Below, piece after piece: positions 21,984 through 29,857 of a DNA stretch of 64,000 nucleotides (position 1 is its first letter; the number at the start of each line of letters is the position of its first letter). This DNA comes from Frigoribacterium sp. Leaf8 (GTDB lineage Bacteria; Actinomycetota; Actinomycetes; Actinomycetales; Microbacteriaceae): assembly GCF_001421165.1 (NCBI RefSeq), contig NZ_LMKB01000008.1, positions 1,570-65,569 of the forward strand, written 5' to 3'. A program made the position numbers and the translations under genes. The notes under the pieces were generated by a model that worked only from the letters and a program-made list of their open reading frames with translations, was not told where the DNA came from and ran no database searches.

Positions 21984-23129
21984 ATGACTGCCCGCCCCTT
22001 GCGCCCCCGCCGCTCGGCGACCGATCGACCGTCGGTCGCCGTCATCGGCACCCGCGGCTACCCCAGCTACTACGGCGGGTTCGAGACCGCGGTGCGCCGG
22101 ATCGCCCCCGCCCTGGTCGACGCCGGCTGGGACGTCACGGTCTACGGTCGCGACGGGTCGACCCGCGACGACGACCCCGCCCGCGACCGTCGGGTCACCT
22201 CCCGCCTGACGAAGGGCGTCGAGAGCAAATCGCTCAGCACCCTGAGCTACGGCCTCACCGCCGTCCTGGACGCCCTCATGCGCCGGCCCGACGCGGCCCT
22301 CGTCATGAACGTGGCCAACGGCTTCTGGCTGCCCTTGCTCAGACTGCGCGGCATCCCCGTCCTGGTCAACGTCGACGGCATCGAGTGGGAGCGTGCCAAG
22401 TGGGGACGCGCGGCGAAGACGGTGTTCCGTCTCGGAGCCAAGGCCAGCGCGCGCTTCGCGAACGGGCTGATCTGCGACGCCCGCGAGATCGTCCGGCGCT
22501 GGCAGGCCGACTTCGGCGTGGACGGCCTGTTCATCCCCTACGGCGGCGACCCGGTCCGCGACCTGCCGGTCGAGCCGGGCCAGCGACACCGCGGGTACGC
22601 CCTGGTCGTCGCGCGCTTCGTCCCCGAGAACACCGTCGTCGAGTTCGTCGAGGCGGCCCGCTCGATCGCCGAGCGGCACGACGTGGTCATCGTCGGCTCG
22701 ACCGGCTACGGCGGCGAACTCGACGAGCTCGTGCGCGGACTGGCCGAGGCGAACGACCGCGTGACCTGGCTCGGCCACGTCAGCGACGACGATCGTCTGC
22801 ACGCCCTCTGGCAGCACGCCGGGGCCTACTTCCACGGCCACAGCGTCGGCGGCACGAACCCGGCGCTGGTGCAGGCCATGTTCGCGGGGGCGCCCGTCGT
22901 CGCGCGCGACACCGTCTACAACCGCGAGGTGCTCGACGGAGCCGGCACCCTCGTGGCGCCCGAGCCCGCCGCCATCGCCGCCGCCGTCACCGCGCTGCTC
23001 GACGATCCGGCCGAGCAGGAACGCCTCAGCGCGGCGGCCCTTTCTCGTGCCGCGGACGCCTACACCTGGCAGTCCGTCTGCGACGCCTACGAGGAGGCGC
23101 TGAGAGCGACCCTGCCCCGCTCGCGCTGA
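21984..23129 (+). CDS. Glycosyltransferase, GT4 with DUF1972 N-domain
   Basis: 381-residue cytoplasmic glycosyltransferase of the DUF1972/GT4 type, often annotated as rhamnosyltransferase-like in exopolysaccharide loci. The N-terminal VAVIGTRGYPSYYGGFETAVRRI is diagnostic. VNVDGIEWERAKW and the C-terminal HGHSVGGTNPALVQAMFAGAPVVARD complete the pattern. The donor and acceptor sugars cannot be read from sequence. A TATATT -10-like element lies about 45 bases upstream in an AT-rich patch. It stands apart from the main polysaccharide locus 5 kb downstream, but may serve the same polymer. Confidence 0.88.
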   Translation: MTARPLRPRRSATDRPSVAVIGTRGYPSYYGGFETAVRRIAPALVDAGWDVTVYGRDGSTRDDDPARDRRVTSRLTKGVESKSLSTLSYGLTAVLDALMRRPDAALVMNVANGFWLPLLRLRGIPVLVNVDGIEWERAKWGRAAKTVFRLGAKASARFANGLICDAREIVRRWQADFGVDGLFIPYGGDPVRDLPVEPGQRHRGYALVVARFVPENTVVEFVEAARSIAERHDVVIVGSTGYGGELDELVRGLAEANDRVTWLGHVSDDDRLHALWQHAGAYFHGHSVGGTNPALVQAMFAGAPVVARDTVYNREVLDGAGTLVAPEPAAIAAAVTALLDDPAEQERLSAAALSRAADAYTWQSVCDAYEEALRATLPRSR

Positions 23130-23152: not shown

Positions 23153-23183
23153 CTTGCACAAAGGTGTGCAAGATCGTACGATC
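23153..23183. promoter_or_regulatory. TetR operator in front of the YhgE operon
   Basis: CTTGCACA-AAGG-TGTGCAAG is a perfect 20-base inverted repeat (23153-23172). It abuts a second palindrome, GATCGTACGATC (23172-23183), which ends five bases before the TetR ATG. Binding here would block both transcription and translation start of the operon. Confidence 0.7.
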
Positions 23184-23188
23184 GGGTC

Positions 23189-23881
23189 ATGCCTGCCGCC
23201 GATGACCCCGTCCGCGCCACCCGTGCGCCACGCCGCGACGCCACTGCGAACCGCGACGCACTGATCTCCGCCGCGGCACTGCTTCTCAACCGCGACCCGT
23301 CCGTGTCGCTCGAGGCCATCGCCGCCGAGGCTGGCCTGTCCCGACGCTCGGTCTACGGCCACTTCGCCACGCGGGACGACCTCGTGCGCGAGGTCAGCCT
23401 GCGCGGTGCCGCCCGCATCGGCGTCGCCGCGCGACCGGCACCGATCGCGGACCCCGTCGTGCAACTCGCCTCCCTGGCCGCCCGACTCTGGGCCGAGGTC
23501 GAGCACGTGCGCGTCATGGCGCAGCTGACCGTGCGCGGCCCGATGGCCCACGAGGTCGGCGAGGCGCTCGCCCCGTTGCGGAAGACCGTCCGCGACGTCG
23601 TCCGTCGTGGCGTGGAATCCGGACGCATGCGCGACGACATCGCTCCCCACACGCTGGCCCACCTGGTGGAGGGCGCCGCCCTGTCCGTGCTCGACGAGGC
23701 CACGACGCAGCGGCTCAGCCGCTCCGAGGGCCACCGGCTCGTCATGCTGGCGGTGCTCGGCGTCGTCGGCCTCGACTGGCGCACCGCCGGCGACCTCGTC
23801 GCGACCGCCCCCGAACTCGCGCTCCCTCCCGAACCGGCGACCGGCGCCTCCTCGATGCCCCCGACCGGAGAACCCGCATGA
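23189..23881 (+). CDS. TetR-family regulator of the pseudo-ABC/YhgE operon
   Basis: 230-residue TetR regulator. The helix-turn-helix spans about residues 22-65 (ISAAALLLNRDPSVSLEAIAAEAGLSRRSVYGHFATRDDLVREV). The C-terminal ligand domain is of ordinary length, plus a Pro-rich tail of about 20 residues. The start is ATG 23189, directly behind a strong inverted repeat, so self-repression is likely. Its stop overlaps the next start by four bases (ATGA), and the second gene overlaps the third in the same way. The three proteins are therefore probably made together. The inducer is unknown. Confidence 0.9.
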   Translation: MPAADDPVRATRAPRRDATANRDALISAAALLLNRDPSVSLEAIAAEAGLSRRSVYGHFATRDDLVREVSLRGAARIGVAARPAPIADPVVQLASLAARLWAEVEHVRVMAQLTVRGPMAHEVGEALAPLRKTVRDVVRRGVESGRMRDDIAPHTLAHLVEGAALSVLDEATTQRLSRSEGHRLVMLAVLGVVGLDWRTAGDLVATAPELALPPEPATGASSMPPTGEPA

Positions 23882-24597
23882 GACTCGAACTGCACGACGT
23901 CGCGATCGGCGACGGTCCCGGCGCGGCACTCCCCCGGCTGAGCGCGGTCGCCGACCGCTGGGTCCCGGGCTTCGTCGCGGTCGAGACCGAGAACGCGCCC
24001 ACCCTGGCGTCACTCGTCGCGGGGGGCCGCATGCGCCCCGAGACCGGACGGGTGACGATCGACGGTCGGGCGGACGACGCGGCGATCCGCGCCTCCTTCG
24101 CCCTCGTCGACACCCCCACCGTCGCCGAACCGTTCGCGGCCCTCACGGTCGTCCAGGTCGCCCGCGAAGAGCTCGCCCTCGCCGGGCTCCGCGCCGACAA
24201 GGCCTCGGCTCGTCTGCTGCTCGAGGAGATCGGGCTGGACGAGCACGAGCGGACCCGCCTGAGCGCCCTGCCCACCGAGCTGCGCGTCCGCCTGCTCTGC
24301 GAGTTGGCGGTGCTGCGCCCCGAGGTGCGCGGGCTGGTCGTGACCACCCCCGAACGGCACGGAGGCGACGTCGCCGCCTGGCTCTCGGTCGTCCACGACC
24401 TCGTCGGCCGCGACTACACCGTGTTGACCATCACCGGGTTCGCGGCCCTCGCGACGATCGAGTCGCTGCCCACGCCCGAGTTCGCCGCGGCCGGGACCGA
24501 CGCCGTACCCGAGACCGACACCGCGCCTCCTTTCTCCCCTGACGACACCGCGGTCGCCACCACCCCCGACACCTCCGTCGAAAGCGACCAGCCGTGA
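23878..24597 (+). CDS. ABC-ATPase-like protein lacking Walker A, signature and Walker B residues
   Basis: 239 residues with the layout of an ABC ATPase but without its catalytic residues. LELHDVAIGDGPG corresponds to the first strand and A-loop region. MRPETGRVTIDGR (52-64) matches the segment that normally follows Walker A. IGLDEHERTRLSALP corresponds to the helix before the signature. Where Walker A should be (about 36-49) the sequence is ETENAPTLASLVAG, with no GxxGxGK[ST]. The signature position reads SALPTE (129-134), the Walker B position LVVTTPE, and the H-loop position ITGF. Residues 195-239 form an acidic Pro/Thr tail. It probably does not hydrolyse ATP and may be a structural partner of the YhgE protein it overlaps. 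Assignment is by pattern only. Confidence 0.7.
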   Translation: MRLELHDVAIGDGPGAALPRLSAVADRWVPGFVAVETENAPTLASLVAGGRMRPETGRVTIDGRADDAAIRASFALVDTPTVAEPFAALTVVQVAREELALAGLRADKASARLLLEEIGLDEHERTRLSALPTELRVRLLCELAVLRPEVRGLVVTTPERHGGDVAAWLSVVHDLVGRDYTVLTITGFAALATIESLPTPEFAAAGTDAVPETDTAPPFSPDDTAVATTPDTSVESDQP

Positions 24598-26597
24598 AGA
24601 TCTACGCCCTCGTCCGTTCCGAGCTGCAGCGCCTCACCGCCACCCCGCTCGCCCGCCTGGCACTCGTCGCGCTGATGACCGTGCCGCTGCTCTACGGCGG
24701 CCTGTACCTCTGGGCCAACCAGGACCCGTACGCCAAGCTCGACCAGATCCCGGCCGCCCTCGTGAACACCGATGCGGGCACCACGGTCGACGGCGAGACG
24801 GTGAACTACGGCGACGAGGTCACCGACCAGATCACCGACGGCGGCGACTTCGACTGGCACGTCGTCTCGGCCGCCCAGGCCGCGGCGGGCCTGCGCGACC
24901 AGACCTACGACTTCACCTTCACGATCCCGAAGGGCTTCAGCGACGACCTCACCTCGGCGAGCGGCGACGACCCGAAGCGGGCCCAGATCACCCTCGCGAC
25001 GAGCGACGTCAACAGCTACCTCTCGTCCACGATCGCCGAGCAGGCGGCGAAGACCATCCGGGCCTCGGTCACCGAGAAGGTCGGCAAGGAGGCGGCGGGC
25101 CGCCTGTTGGTCGGCCTGGCCGACGTGCGCACGAACCTGGGCAGCGCGGTCGACGGGGCGAACCAGCTCGTCGCCGGCACCGGTTCGGCCGTCGCCGGCG
25201 CGAACCAGCTGGCCGACGGTGCGGCCGACGCGGCGACCGGGGCCCACACCCTCGCCGACGGGACGAGCCAGCTCAGCTCGGGGGCGTCCGCGCTGGACAC
25301 GGGACTGCAGACGCTGAAGACCCAGACGACGGCCCTGCCCGCGCAGACCCAGACCCTGGCGGACGGTGCCGCCCAGGTGGCGGCCGGCAACGATGCCCTG
25401 GCCACCGGCGTGGCCGACGCTGCAACGACGAGCGCGACGGCCGCGGCCGGCCTGCCCGCCGCCCAGCAGCAGGCGCAGCAGCAGATCGCCGAAGCCCTGC
25501 GCCAGCAGGGTTACACCGACGAGCAGATCCAGCAGATCGCCGCGACCTTCGCCCCCGCGACCGAGTCGCTGACCACCGCCCTCCAGGACGCGAACACCCA
25601 GATCCAGGGGCTGAACACCCAGGTGGGGCAGCTCGCCACGGGTGCCGACCAGGTCTCGACCGGCGCCGCGACCCTGGCCGCCGCCACACCGGCCCTGACC
25701 CAGGGCATCTCGTCGGCCGCGACCGGCTCGTCGCAACTGGCCACGGGCGCGGCGAGCGCCGCCACGGGCGCCTCGACCCTCGCGACCGGTCTCGACACCC
25801 TGAGCAGCGGGTCCACCTCGCTGCGCGACGGCGTCGTCAGCCTCGACACCGGCACCACCCAGCTCCGCGACGGGCTGCAGAGCGGACTCGGCGAGATCCC
25901 CGCGAGCACCGACCGGACGCGCGACGACCAGGCGAGCGCCATCAGCGACCCGGTCTCGGTCAAGGACGCCGCCCTCACGAGTGCCGGCACCTACGGCGCG
26001 GGACTGGCACCGTTCTTCATCAGCCTCGCGGCCTGGATCGGCATGTACGCGCTGTTCCTGATCGTGAAGCCGATCTCGAAGCGGGCCATCACCGCCGTCA
26101 AGGCCCCCGTGCGCATCTCGCTGGCCGGCTGGCTGGCCCCGGTGGTGCTCGGCGTCGTGCAGATGGTCGCGCTCTACGTCATCGTCACCCAGGCGCTCGG
26201 CTTCGAGGTCGCCCACCCGCTCGGCATGATCGGACTGATGGCCCTCGCCTCGGCGGCGTTCGCGGCGATCATCATGACGCTCAACGTCTGGCTCGGCAGC
26301 GTCGGGCAGTTCCTCGGCCTGGTGCTCATGGTCGTGCAGCTCGTCACGGCCGGCGGGACCTTCCCGTGGCAGACCCTGCCCGCCCCGCTCGCAGCCCTCC
26401 ACTTCGTGCTGCCGATGAGCTACGCCACCGACGGCCTGCGCCAGGTGATGTACGGCGGCAGCTCGGCCGCGGCCTGGGGCGACGCCGGCGTGCTGGCGGC
26501 CTGGCTGCTCGGCGCGCTCGTGCTGACCTGGGTCGCGACCTCCCGCATGACACGGGCGCGCACGATGCGCGACCTGCGGCCCTCGCTGATCGGCTGA
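24594..26597 (+). CDS. YhgE/Pip family membrane protein
   Basis: 667-residue membrane protein. One N-terminal helix (about residues 19-41) is followed by a large extracytoplasmic region starting DPYAKLDQIPAALVNTDAG, the YhgE/Pip hallmark. About 280 residues of LxxGxxxLxxG-type repeats then follow (ADGAADAATGAHTLADGTS and similar), likely a long helical stalk. Five or six C-terminal helices (about 462-650) resemble ABC-2 permeases. Relatives include phage infection protein Pip and, more distantly, EsaA of type VII secretion. The GTG start overlaps the stop of the pseudo-ABC gene (GTGA). Function is unknown. An export or cell-envelope role is inference. Confidence 0.88.
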   Translation: MKIYALVRSELQRLTATPLARLALVALMTVPLLYGGLYLWANQDPYAKLDQIPAALVNTDAGTTVDGETVNYGDEVTDQITDGGDFDWHVVSAAQAAAGLRDQTYDFTFTIPKGFSDDLTSASGDDPKRAQITLATSDVNSYLSSTIAEQAAKTIRASVTEKVGKEAAGRLLVGLADVRTNLGSAVDGANQLVAGTGSAVAGANQLADGAADAATGAHTLADGTSQLSSGASALDTGLQTLKTQTTALPAQTQTLADGAAQVAAGNDALATGVADAATTSATAAAGLPAAQQQAQQQIAEALRQQGYTDEQIQQIAATFAPATESLTTALQDANTQIQGLNTQVGQLATGADQVSTGAATLAAATPALTQGISSAATGSSQLATGAASAATGASTLATGLDTLSSGSTSLRDGVVSLDTGTTQLRDGLQSGLGEIPASTDRTRDDQASAISDPVSVKDAALTSAGTYGAGLAPFFISLAAWIGMYALFLIVKPISKRAITAVKAPVRISLAGWLAPVVLGVVQMVALYVIVTQALGFEVAHPLGMIGLMALASAAFAAIIMTLNVWLGSVGQFLGLVLMVVQLVTAGGTFPWQTLPAPLAALHFVLPMSYATDGLRQVMYGGSSAAAWGDAGVLAAWLLGALVLTWVATSRMTRARTMRDLRPSLIG

Positions 26598-26675: not shown

Positions 26676-27092
26676 CTAGTCGGTGCGGGTCTCGAGGGTG
26701 GGGAGCACGGCGGGGTCGGCGTCGTGCAGGAACGTCGTGAGGCGTTCGACCTCGTCGACCTCGCCGATGGCGGCCGCACCTCGCCGGAGGGCGAAGAGGG
26801 ACCGCAGCACGCCCCGGTTGGGTTCGTGCGACCACGGCACGGGGCCCTGTCCGCGCCACCCCGCCTTGCGCAGCGCGTCGAGACCGCGGTGGTAGCCGAC
26901 GCGGGCATAGGCGTAGGCCTCGAGCTCGGCGCCGCGGGCGTCGGCCTCGTCGCTGAGCAGTGCCCAGGCGAGCGACGACGTGGGGTGGGCGACGACGACC
27001 TCGGCCGTCGTCAGCGTCTCGAGGTCGGCGACGACGTCGGGTTCGGCGGGCAGGCGGGTCTCGGGCACGCCGAGCAGGTTCGTTGCGGTCAT
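26676..27092 (-). CDS. DUF3151 family protein
   Basis: 138-residue actinobacterial conserved protein. The core HPTSSLAWALLSDEA, AYAYARVGYHRGLDALRKAGWRG and GPVPWSHEPNRGVLRSLFALRRGAAAIGE is the DUF3151 signature. No signal peptide or membrane segment is visible, and the function is unknown. I start at ATG 27092 (MTATNLLGVPE), the family N-terminus. The frame is open about 30 codons further upstream with non-family sequence. It converges on the YhgE operon across the strong palindrome. Confidence 0.88.
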   Translation of the reverse strand: MTATNLLGVPETRLPAEPDVVADLETLTTAEVVVAHPTSSLAWALLSDEADARGAELEAYAYARVGYHRGLDALRKAGWRGQGPVPWSHEPNRGVLRSLFALRRGAAAIGEVDEVERLTTFLHDADPAVLPTLETRTD

Positions 27093-27235
27093 CCCCCCAT
27101 CATCCCCGACGTCCGTCCCGGGGACCGTCGCGACCCTGGTATAACTCGTTTCGTCGTGCAATACTGAGATATCACACACGGTCATCGGCCGTGTCGGGCG
27201 CCACGGTGCCCGCGAGCTCTCGACGAAAGACCACC

Positions 27236-28447: not shown

Positions 28448-29857
28448 ATGGAACTCAAGACCTTCATCACCGTCGTCCGGACGCGGTGGGTCCTCATCGT
28501 CGTCGTGACCCTGAGCGCCGTGCTGCTCGGGGCGACCGCGTCGCTCGCGACGGCGAAGTCGTACGCGTCGTCGACGCAGCTCTTCGTCTCGGTCTCGTCG
28601 ATCGGCTCGTCGGACGCCGGCGACCTCGTCCAGGGCAGCAGCGCCGCGCAGGCCAAGGTGCGCTCGTACGTCTCCGTCGTCACGTCGGGTCGGGTGCTCG
28701 AACCCGTCATCGCCGATCTCGGGCTCGACACCACCCCCGCGGGGCTCGCCTCGAAGATCTCGGCCTCCAGCCCGGTGAACACGTCGTTGATCGACATCTC
28801 GGTCACCGACGGCGACCCCGCGCAGGCGGCACGACTCGCCGACGCCGTGGCCACGAGCTTCGAGAAGGTGGTCGAAGAGCAACTCGAACAACCCGTGGGC
28901 GGCGGCAGCGGGCTGGTCACCGTCGAGTCCATCGACGCTCCCGTCGTGCCGACGAGCCCGGCCAACCCCAAGCCCGTCCTCTGGATCAGCCTGGCCCTCG
29001 GCCTGGGCATCCTGTCGGGCACGGCCCTGGCCCTCCTCCGCAACACCCTCGACACGCGCATCCGCAGCAAGGCCGACGTCGAGGGGGTGACGAACGCGCC
29101 GCTGCTCGGTGGCATCGGCTTCCACACAGAAGCCTCCTCGGCCCCGCTGGTCGTCAACAACGATCCGCGCAGCCCACTCGCCGAGTCCTACCGCGCCCTC
29201 CGCACCAATCTCCAGTTCGTCTCGTTCGAGGGACGCAGCCGGACCTTCATCGTCACCTCGGCCATGCCCGGCGAGGGCAAGTCGACGACGGCGGCGAACC
29301 TGGCCGTCTGCCTGGCCGAGACCGGTGCCTCGGTGCTGCTCGTCGACGCCGACCTGCGCCGGCCCCGCGTCGCCGAGGTCATGGGCCTCGAGGGCGCCGT
29401 CGGACTGACCGACCTGCTCGTCGGGCGGGCAGAACTCGTCGACGTCGTGCAGCCGTGGGGACGCCTGGGCCTCCACGTGCTGCCCTCGGGCACCGTTCCC
29501 CCGAACCCGAGCGAACTGCTCGGCTCGCTCGCCATGGCGAGCCTCGTCTCGACGGTCGAGGTCGACTACGACTTCGTCATCATCGACACCCCGCCCCTGC
29601 TGCCGGTGACCGACGCCGCCGTCCTCAGCCGCTGCGTGAGCGGCGTGATCGTCGCGACCGCGGCCCAGCGATCGTCGCGCCACCAGCTGAAGCAGGCCCT
29701 CGCCGCCGTCTCCGAGATCGGCAGCCGCACCCTGGGGGTCGTCCTCACGATGGCCCCGACGAAGGGCCTCGGTGCCTACGGGTACGGAGCCTACGGGGGC
29801 TACTACGGTTCGGTGACCGAGAACCCGGTCCCTGCCTCGACGGCGGCGGCCCGATGA
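28448..29857 (+). CDS. Polysaccharide copolymerase / BY-type tyrosine kinase fusion
   Basis: 469-residue membrane protein that controls polysaccharide chain length. A Wzz domain sits between two helices (about 14-34 and 177-197), the second followed by a cytoplasmic kinase domain. Walker A is SAMPGEGKSTT (271-281), Walker A' LLVDADLRRP (297-306) and Walker B FVIIDTPP (376-383). The C-terminal tyrosine cluster AYGYGAYGGYYG (about 442-453) is the autophosphorylation site. As in many actinobacteria, modulator and kinase are one chain. Its stop overlaps the start of a low-molecular-weight phosphatase gene (ATGA), the expected counter-enzyme. Confidence 0.94.
   Translation: MELKTFITVVRTRWVLIVVVTLSAVLLGATASLATAKSYASSTQLFVSVSSIGSSDAGDLVQGSSAAQAKVRSYVSVVTSGRVLEPVIADLGLDTTPAGLASKISASSPVNTSLIDISVTDGDPAQAARLADAVATSFEKVVEEQLEQPVGGGSGLVTVESIDAPVVPTSPANPKPVLWISLALGLGILSGTALALLRNTLDTRIRSKADVEGVTNAPLLGGIGFHTEASSAPLVVNNDPRSPLAESYRALRTNLQFVSFEGRSRTFIVTSAMPGEGKSTTAANLAVCLAETGASVLLVDADLRRPRVAEVMGLEGAVGLTDLLVGRAELVDVVQPWGRLGLHVLPSGTVPPNPSELLGSLAMASLVSTVEVDYDFVIIDTPPLLPVTDAAVLSRCVSGVIVATAAQRSSRHQLKQALAAVSEIGSRTLGVVLTMAPTKGLGAYGYGAYGGYYGSVTENPVPASTAAAR

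Follow-up and report, generated by a model that had tools for sequence, protein, structure and literature searches.

Degenerate nucleotide-binding domains (NBDs) are known among ATP-binding cassette (ABC) proteins from CFTR, TAP and the heterodimeric exporters, in which one composite site normally stays active. The YhgE/Pip family takes in Lactococcus PIP, Enterococcus PIP_EF and relatives of EsaA; PIP_EF is essential for phage infection according to the excerpted text of PMC4999554, which mentions no NBD-like partner of PIP_EF. The excerpt of PMC3924187 counts putative ABC-2 superfamily transport proteins among the homologues of the Phage Infection Protein family (Transporter Classification 9.B.74), likewise mentions no NBD-like partner, and gives a Streptomyces example of 357 amino acids, shorter than the protein described here. 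In the excerpt of PMC12584985, an actinobacterial YhgE is mentioned only as a recombination hotspot. Here we analyse a window of 64,000 nucleotides (the whole stretch of DNA under study) from the 3.3 Mb genome of Frigoribacterium sp. Leaf8, in which genes for a TetR-family regulator, a middle protein that we call M, and a YhgE/Pip protein follow one another head to tail on the + strand. M is probably a selected, non-hydrolysing pseudo-ABC NBD, a dedicated cytosolic partner docked on the ABC-2-like YhgE/Pip protein, and the pair would not be an ATP-driven pump. The features of the locus are as follows.

23153..23172, no strand: predicted palindromic TetR operator, at -36 to -17 relative to the TetR start
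23189..23881, + strand: TetR-family regulator, 230 amino acids (Pfam TetR_N)
23878..24597, + strand: M, predicted pseudo-ABC nucleotide-binding domain, 239 amino acids (profile and structure comparison)
23995..24006, + strand: site of the lost Walker A Lys, M residues 40-43 with Pro41 (profile alignment)
24343..24366, + strand: TTPERHGG (M residues 156-163), conserved replacement of the Walker B/D-loop (alignments)
24594..26597, + strand: YhgE/Pip protein, 667 amino acids (TIGR03061, TIGR03062, PF12698)

The three genes overlap by four bases at both junctions (ATGA at 23878-23881 between TetR and M, GTGA at 24594-24597 between M and YhgE), as an earlier sequence-only reading had reported. Among named records, Frigoribacterium sp. 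MEB024 is the nearest, with 93% identity over M. The window YhgE passes both family models, TIGR03061 (185.7 bits against a cut-off of 96.15, E 4.6e-55) and TIGR03062 (205.4 bits against 102.2, E 7.2e-61), and shares the xxxLxxG repeats of the YhgE/Pip family; it differs from the described members in being accompanied by a pseudo-NBD. It consists of an N-terminal helix, a long helical stalk of xxxLxxG repeats and a C-terminal ABC-2-like membrane part. The resemblance of this last part to an ABC-2 permease had also been proposed from the sequence, and is borne out by a match to PF12698 (ABC2_membrane_3) at 58.5 bits against a cut-off of 31.6 (E 7.9e-16). Against PDB sequences, YhgE gave one match, a coiled-coil fusion.

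M and YhgE are tightly linked. YhgE lies directly 3′ of M on the same strand in 61 of 61 family loci, with a 4-base overlap in 50. These loci, which include the window and whose start codons were picked by script, are those retained from 150 genomes searched and 66 matched, one row being dropped for a match in two pieces (G093) and four for weak matches (G096, G119, G143 and G147). Elsewhere in the order, YhgE is next downstream of M in all 40 loci read, out of 55 matching loci outside the family. For the class, M rows were matched against YhgE rows in 246 class-level genomes, at cut-offs (E ≤1e-39 for YhgE, E ≤1.6e-28 for M) chosen after the lists were seen; M counted as directly upstream if the gap between matches was below 1000 bases (23-368 seen), and M rows weaker than E 8.3e-23 were unused. 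M is then directly upstream in 66 of 68 strong YhgE rows, and all 64 strong M rows adjoin YhgE. Without cut-offs, M accompanies 67 of 95 YhgE rows, and YhgE adjoins 67 of the 75 M rows compared. The deeper M profile, A4, includes ten rows from YhgE loci, nine of them in class-set genomes, where the link is non-independent; with those nine genomes set aside, 55 of 55 strong M rows adjoin YhgE. Strong YhgE rows lacking a listed M occur in two genomes, G929 and G920 (one each), and the G929 locus (L311) does carry an M, broken across two frames, ahead of its first YhgE. The conserved linkage that the sequence-only reading had anticipated is complete among the loci read in the family and the order and near-absolute among strong rows in the class.

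Other arrangements were also seen. Two M-YhgE pairs stand in a row at L297 and L311, the YhgE reading frames of L062, L087 and L170 are short, and six loci outside the class (L249-L254) hold two adjacent YhgE genes without M. A weaker YhgE-like group (E 1e-38 to 6e-21; for example G257:C16 and G160:C1) is possibly a separate subfamily.

Searched alone, M matched no model in Pfam or NCBIfam and gave no useful match among PDB sequences. A 61-row M profile gave four weak PDB matches, three of them ABC ATPases (N-terminal part) and one an unrelated repeat protein. When 88 M sequences were compared by hhalign with 29 genuine NBDs of the same genome, the two aligned end to end over 187 columns at 97.9% (E 3.2e-13), and the controls, one TetR alignment and five column-shuffled ABC alignments, reached ≤1.4%. 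In the window genome, A4 scored M at 226 bits and found 51 other places, led by one at 58 bits; several of these coincide with PF00005 places. PF00005 is matched by 11 of 37 A4 members on their own (best 4.5e-13), and many A4 members match NCBIfam ABC ATP-binding models, none of them group-specific among the 25 models shown. A Foldseek search with a low-confidence model of M returned 192 matches at E ≤0.001, of which the best 50 are ABC components by title, a few titles being vague. VIA-align on the same model ranked LptB best (Z 9.7, root-mean-square deviation 4.5, 183 residues aligned); because best Z values of 7 to 8 are common among models without a clear match, the main weight rests on the profile comparison. 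Residues 1-195 are ABC-like, and a long, variable tail follows from about residue 200. In a quick tree, one branch (Shimodaira-Hasegawa-like approximate likelihood ratio test 99) splits 76 M rows from 32 genuine NBDs, which come mostly from one genome and do not sample the whole ABC superfamily. Within the M rows, the window groups with the rows of its family and order and with four from the class level in a clade of 32 (support 100), and the Walker A Lys occurs in none of them. The ABC fold suspected from the sequence is upheld by the profile comparison, with Foldseek and VIA-align in agreement, and M is best read as an ABC domain by descent.

The residues that would power such a domain are missing. 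In the profile alignment, VETENAPT (residues 35-42) lies opposite the ABC motif GxxGxGKT, with Pro41 replacing the Walker A Lys; LPTEL (131-135) stands at the LSGGQ position, TTP (156-158) at the DEP position, and Gly187-Phe188, with no His, at the H-loop. The alignment agrees with the earlier description of a middle protein lacking the P-loop, LSGGQ, the Walker B acid and the H-loop His, and from these residues M is predicted to have lost ATP hydrolysis. M thus resembles an ABC NBD (PF00005) in its end-to-end profile alignment, its structural glycines and an adjoining ABC-2-like membrane gene, but lacks the Walker A Lys, LSGGQ, Walker B Asp/Glu and H-loop His, and carries a new conserved P-x-R-H-G motif at the Walker B end/D-loop. 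It shares with the degenerate NBDs of CFTR, TAP and heterodimeric exporters the loss of catalytic residues, but differs from them in that M, as the NBD-like gene of the operon, retains no catalytic element at all.

The loss is old and graded. Among 149 YhgE-linked M proteins, none has the catalytic Glu or an intact signature motif, and five have a normal Walker A Lys. Of the 61 family members, 59 carry Pro at the Walker A Lys position and none carries Lys; neither the Walker B Asp nor the catalytic Glu is present in any (0/61 each). In 40 M proteins from other families of the order, the same position holds Arg 18 times, His 13 times, Pro four times and Lys never; a P-loop is recognisable there (GEPGHGHT or GEGQDQRT), Walker B Asp is kept in 18, and the catalytic Glu in 0/40. 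Across these 101 close proteins, the signature site shows GG in 0 and Ser-Gly at 132-133 in 2, and column 187 of the H-loop has His in 0. A further 48 distant M proteins adjoining YhgE keep the Walker B Asp in 32 cases, LSGG in none and the catalytic Glu in none. A 49th row of this set, L253, was excluded as an ordinary ABC gene near YhgE and not its partner; it held the sole Glu. Three other genes picked up by the M profile (L317, L320 and L321) are true ABC genes with full motifs and no YhgE neighbour in the stretch read. The sequence-only reading had asked whether the P-loop is absent in all orthologues: the Walker A Lys is found in 0/101 close relatives and in five of 48 distant ones. The sequence-only reading had also allowed that M might be a decayed copy among orthologues with intact Walker motifs; none of the 149 has the full motif set, which points to an old family of pseudoenzymes rather than a decayed copy. 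In the window's clade, M appears to have lost the nucleotide site too, besides hydrolysis.

In place of the lost motifs, M conserves residues of its own. Alignment of 61 sequences leaves 11 invariant columns (G50, R51, G57, D78, P80, E97, R136, R147, P158, R160 and G162), and alignment of 88 leaves six (R51, G57, D78, E97, P158 and R160). P158 and R160 sit at the end of Walker B/start of the D-loop in ABC proteins, so this site has been rebuilt and not merely lost. The ratio of nonsynonymous to synonymous substitution rates (dN/dS) between the window M and ten Frigoribacterium relatives is 0.15 to 0.49, and with the invariant new residues it shows that M is not decaying; the idea of a decayed copy was ruled out on this conservation and dN/dS.

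The regulator belongs to the same unit. The TetR protein matches PF00440 (TetR_N) at 36 bits against a cut-off of 24 (E 6e-9), and 52 of 61 family loci have a homologous gene upstream of M, with a 4-base overlap in 42. Ahead of the operon, as the sequence-only reading had pointed out, lies the 20-base palindrome CTTGCACAAAGGTGTGCAAG (23153-23172), with two 8-base arms and a 4-base spacer (CTTGCACA-AAGG-TGTGCAAG). Allowing ≤2 mismatches, this pattern has a single match in the 64 kb window, itself with 0 mismatches, and the site occurs once in the whole genome, at the TetR-M-YhgE operon; shuffled windows gave a mean of 0.11 matches, with a match in 11 of 100 shuffles. The corresponding site in relatives has perfect arms that reach up to 17 bases, and the consensus core is TAACTTGCACA-N4-TGTGCAAGTTA. 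The form TGCAC-N4-6-GTGCA is present no more than 150 bases ahead of TetR in 51 of 52 TetR-led loci, and in one of nine loci without that TetR gene (at -94); the remaining 565 kb of family loci hold one further occurrence. A chance palindrome was rejected on the shuffles, the single genomic site and the 51 of 52 TetR-led loci. The co-occurrence of site and TetR gene marks the palindrome as a conserved, putative TetR operator. A promoter scan found no promoter-like site. In other lineages, TetR_N was found in six of ten neighbouring genes tested, which had been chosen with a crude gene caller, and the TetR gene is divergent or downstream. Since a TetR gene is still often near in these altered positions, TetR, M and YhgE form a module in which the regulator's place varies and the trio survives rearrangement. 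A TetR gene downstream of YhgE or divergently upstream of M was seen at L155, L171, L135, L142, L149 and L093.

In ABC-2 systems, the membrane protein engages its NBD by way of cytosolic coupling helices, which fit in between the Q-loop and the helical subdomain. The invariant residues D78, P80 and E97 of M lie in this stretch, which suggests that the docking face has been retained. As these three are invariant while the nucleotide site is lost, we propose that M would dock on the inner face of a YhgE dimer, at the position of a motor domain, and would hold or gate YhgE as a non-hydrolysing clamp. The M-YhgE pair would then be a fixed or ligand-gated envelope structure, acting as an anchor, a sensor or a passive conduit. 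The TetR protein would bind the palindrome before its own gene and repress the operon until a ligand releases it.

Several observations weigh against this proposal. An AlphaFold2 model of M, built from 11 close sequences, is poor (mean predicted local distance difference test (pLDDT) score 56.8, with residues 1-72 below 50), and that of YhgE is weak (mean pLDDT 60.8, predicted template modelling score 0.33); the latter contains long, mostly confident helices at about 142-433, between the N-terminal helix and the C-terminal helices. His stands at column 188 in 16 of the 101 close M proteins (2 family, 14 order), where a one-residue shift could restore equivalence with the H-loop. Among the 48 distant proteins, five have a normal Walker A (L246, L282, L283, L312 and L313) and 36 have Arg, so nucleotide binding may persist in places. 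The genomes with L312 (G078) and L313 (G155) belong to the same family and order as the window, but the tree places the M proteins of both loci among class-level rows; Lys has therefore been lost from the window's clade and not from the whole order. M is absent from 26 of 27 weaker YhgE rows in the class (present in 1) and from 10 of 11 YhgE loci read outside it, and YhgE-type proteins therefore do not all need M. Finally, YhgE could still be powered by a functional NBD whose gene lies elsewhere.

Of the other explanations, the one that fares best, and is still rather unlikely, casts M as a regulator or chaperone of YhgE, acting for example in its insertion or turnover and outside the NBD position. 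The translational coupling of M to YhgE (50 of 61 overlaps) would fit assembly control, and the long, variable C-terminal tail counts for such a role; the invariance of D78, P80 and E97, in the stretch that contacts the membrane subunit in ABC proteins, speaks for docking instead. We regard as unlikely that YhgE is a true ATP-driven ABC-2 exporter in which M heterodimerises with a working NBD from another locus. In known ABC proteins, a degenerate NBD usually faces a working one, and the window genome offers 102 PF00005 matches. Yet the constant core comprises two genes only, M and YhgE, no NBD gene was seen travelling with them among the neighbours, only some of which are annotated, and M keeps no catalytic residue in the 61 aligned family members. 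A nucleotide-sensing subunit that binds without hydrolysing is improbable as well: the normal or Arg-substituted Walker A of the distant proteins would suit it, but the P-loop Lys is gone from the window and from all 61 aligned family members. That M is a functionless decayed ABC gene carried by its operon position would explain the lost catalytic motifs, but is scarcely credible for a protein kept across the class with invariant new residues and the dN/dS given above.

The cassette is flanked by a glycosyltransferase gene (21984-23129) and a DUF3151 gene (26676-27185, minus strand), with an exopolysaccharide-type Wzz/AAA_31 gene further on (28448-29857). The neighbourhood was not used as evidence of function because, of these neighbours, DUF3151 alone is shared by many relatives (24 of 70 loci); a link to exopolysaccharide through the glycosyltransferase and Wzz-like neighbours was dropped for this reason.

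Among the papers listed by searches of the open-licence PubMed Central literature, no title or abstract describes an M-YhgE pair, which is weak evidence of absence. A class-wide, YhgE-tied family with an NBD-like gene stripped of its catalytic parts appears undescribed in the literature surveyed. The pair suggests a pump-like machine running without its motor. A broader proposal, which we hold tentatively and at something short of an even chance, is that Actinomycetota have widespread ABC-like membrane complexes that dispense with ATP hydrolysis and, in the window's clade, with nucleotide altogether. M-YhgE would then be a fossil of the origin of YhgE/Pip proteins from ABC-2 exporters: the disarming of the motor would have begun with the signature and the catalytic Glu and gone on with replacement of the Lys by Arg, His or Pro, after which the motor would have been retained as a structural clamp, while other lineages lost it entirely. 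With motif loss graded across living lineages, the disarming of a motor is directly testable. The YhgE/Pip proteins are known mainly from phage infection and their cellular job is not understood; a near-constant, apparently dead ABC partner gives a concrete handle on it, and M-YhgE suggests that ABC architecture may be retained for purposes beyond ATP-driven transport.

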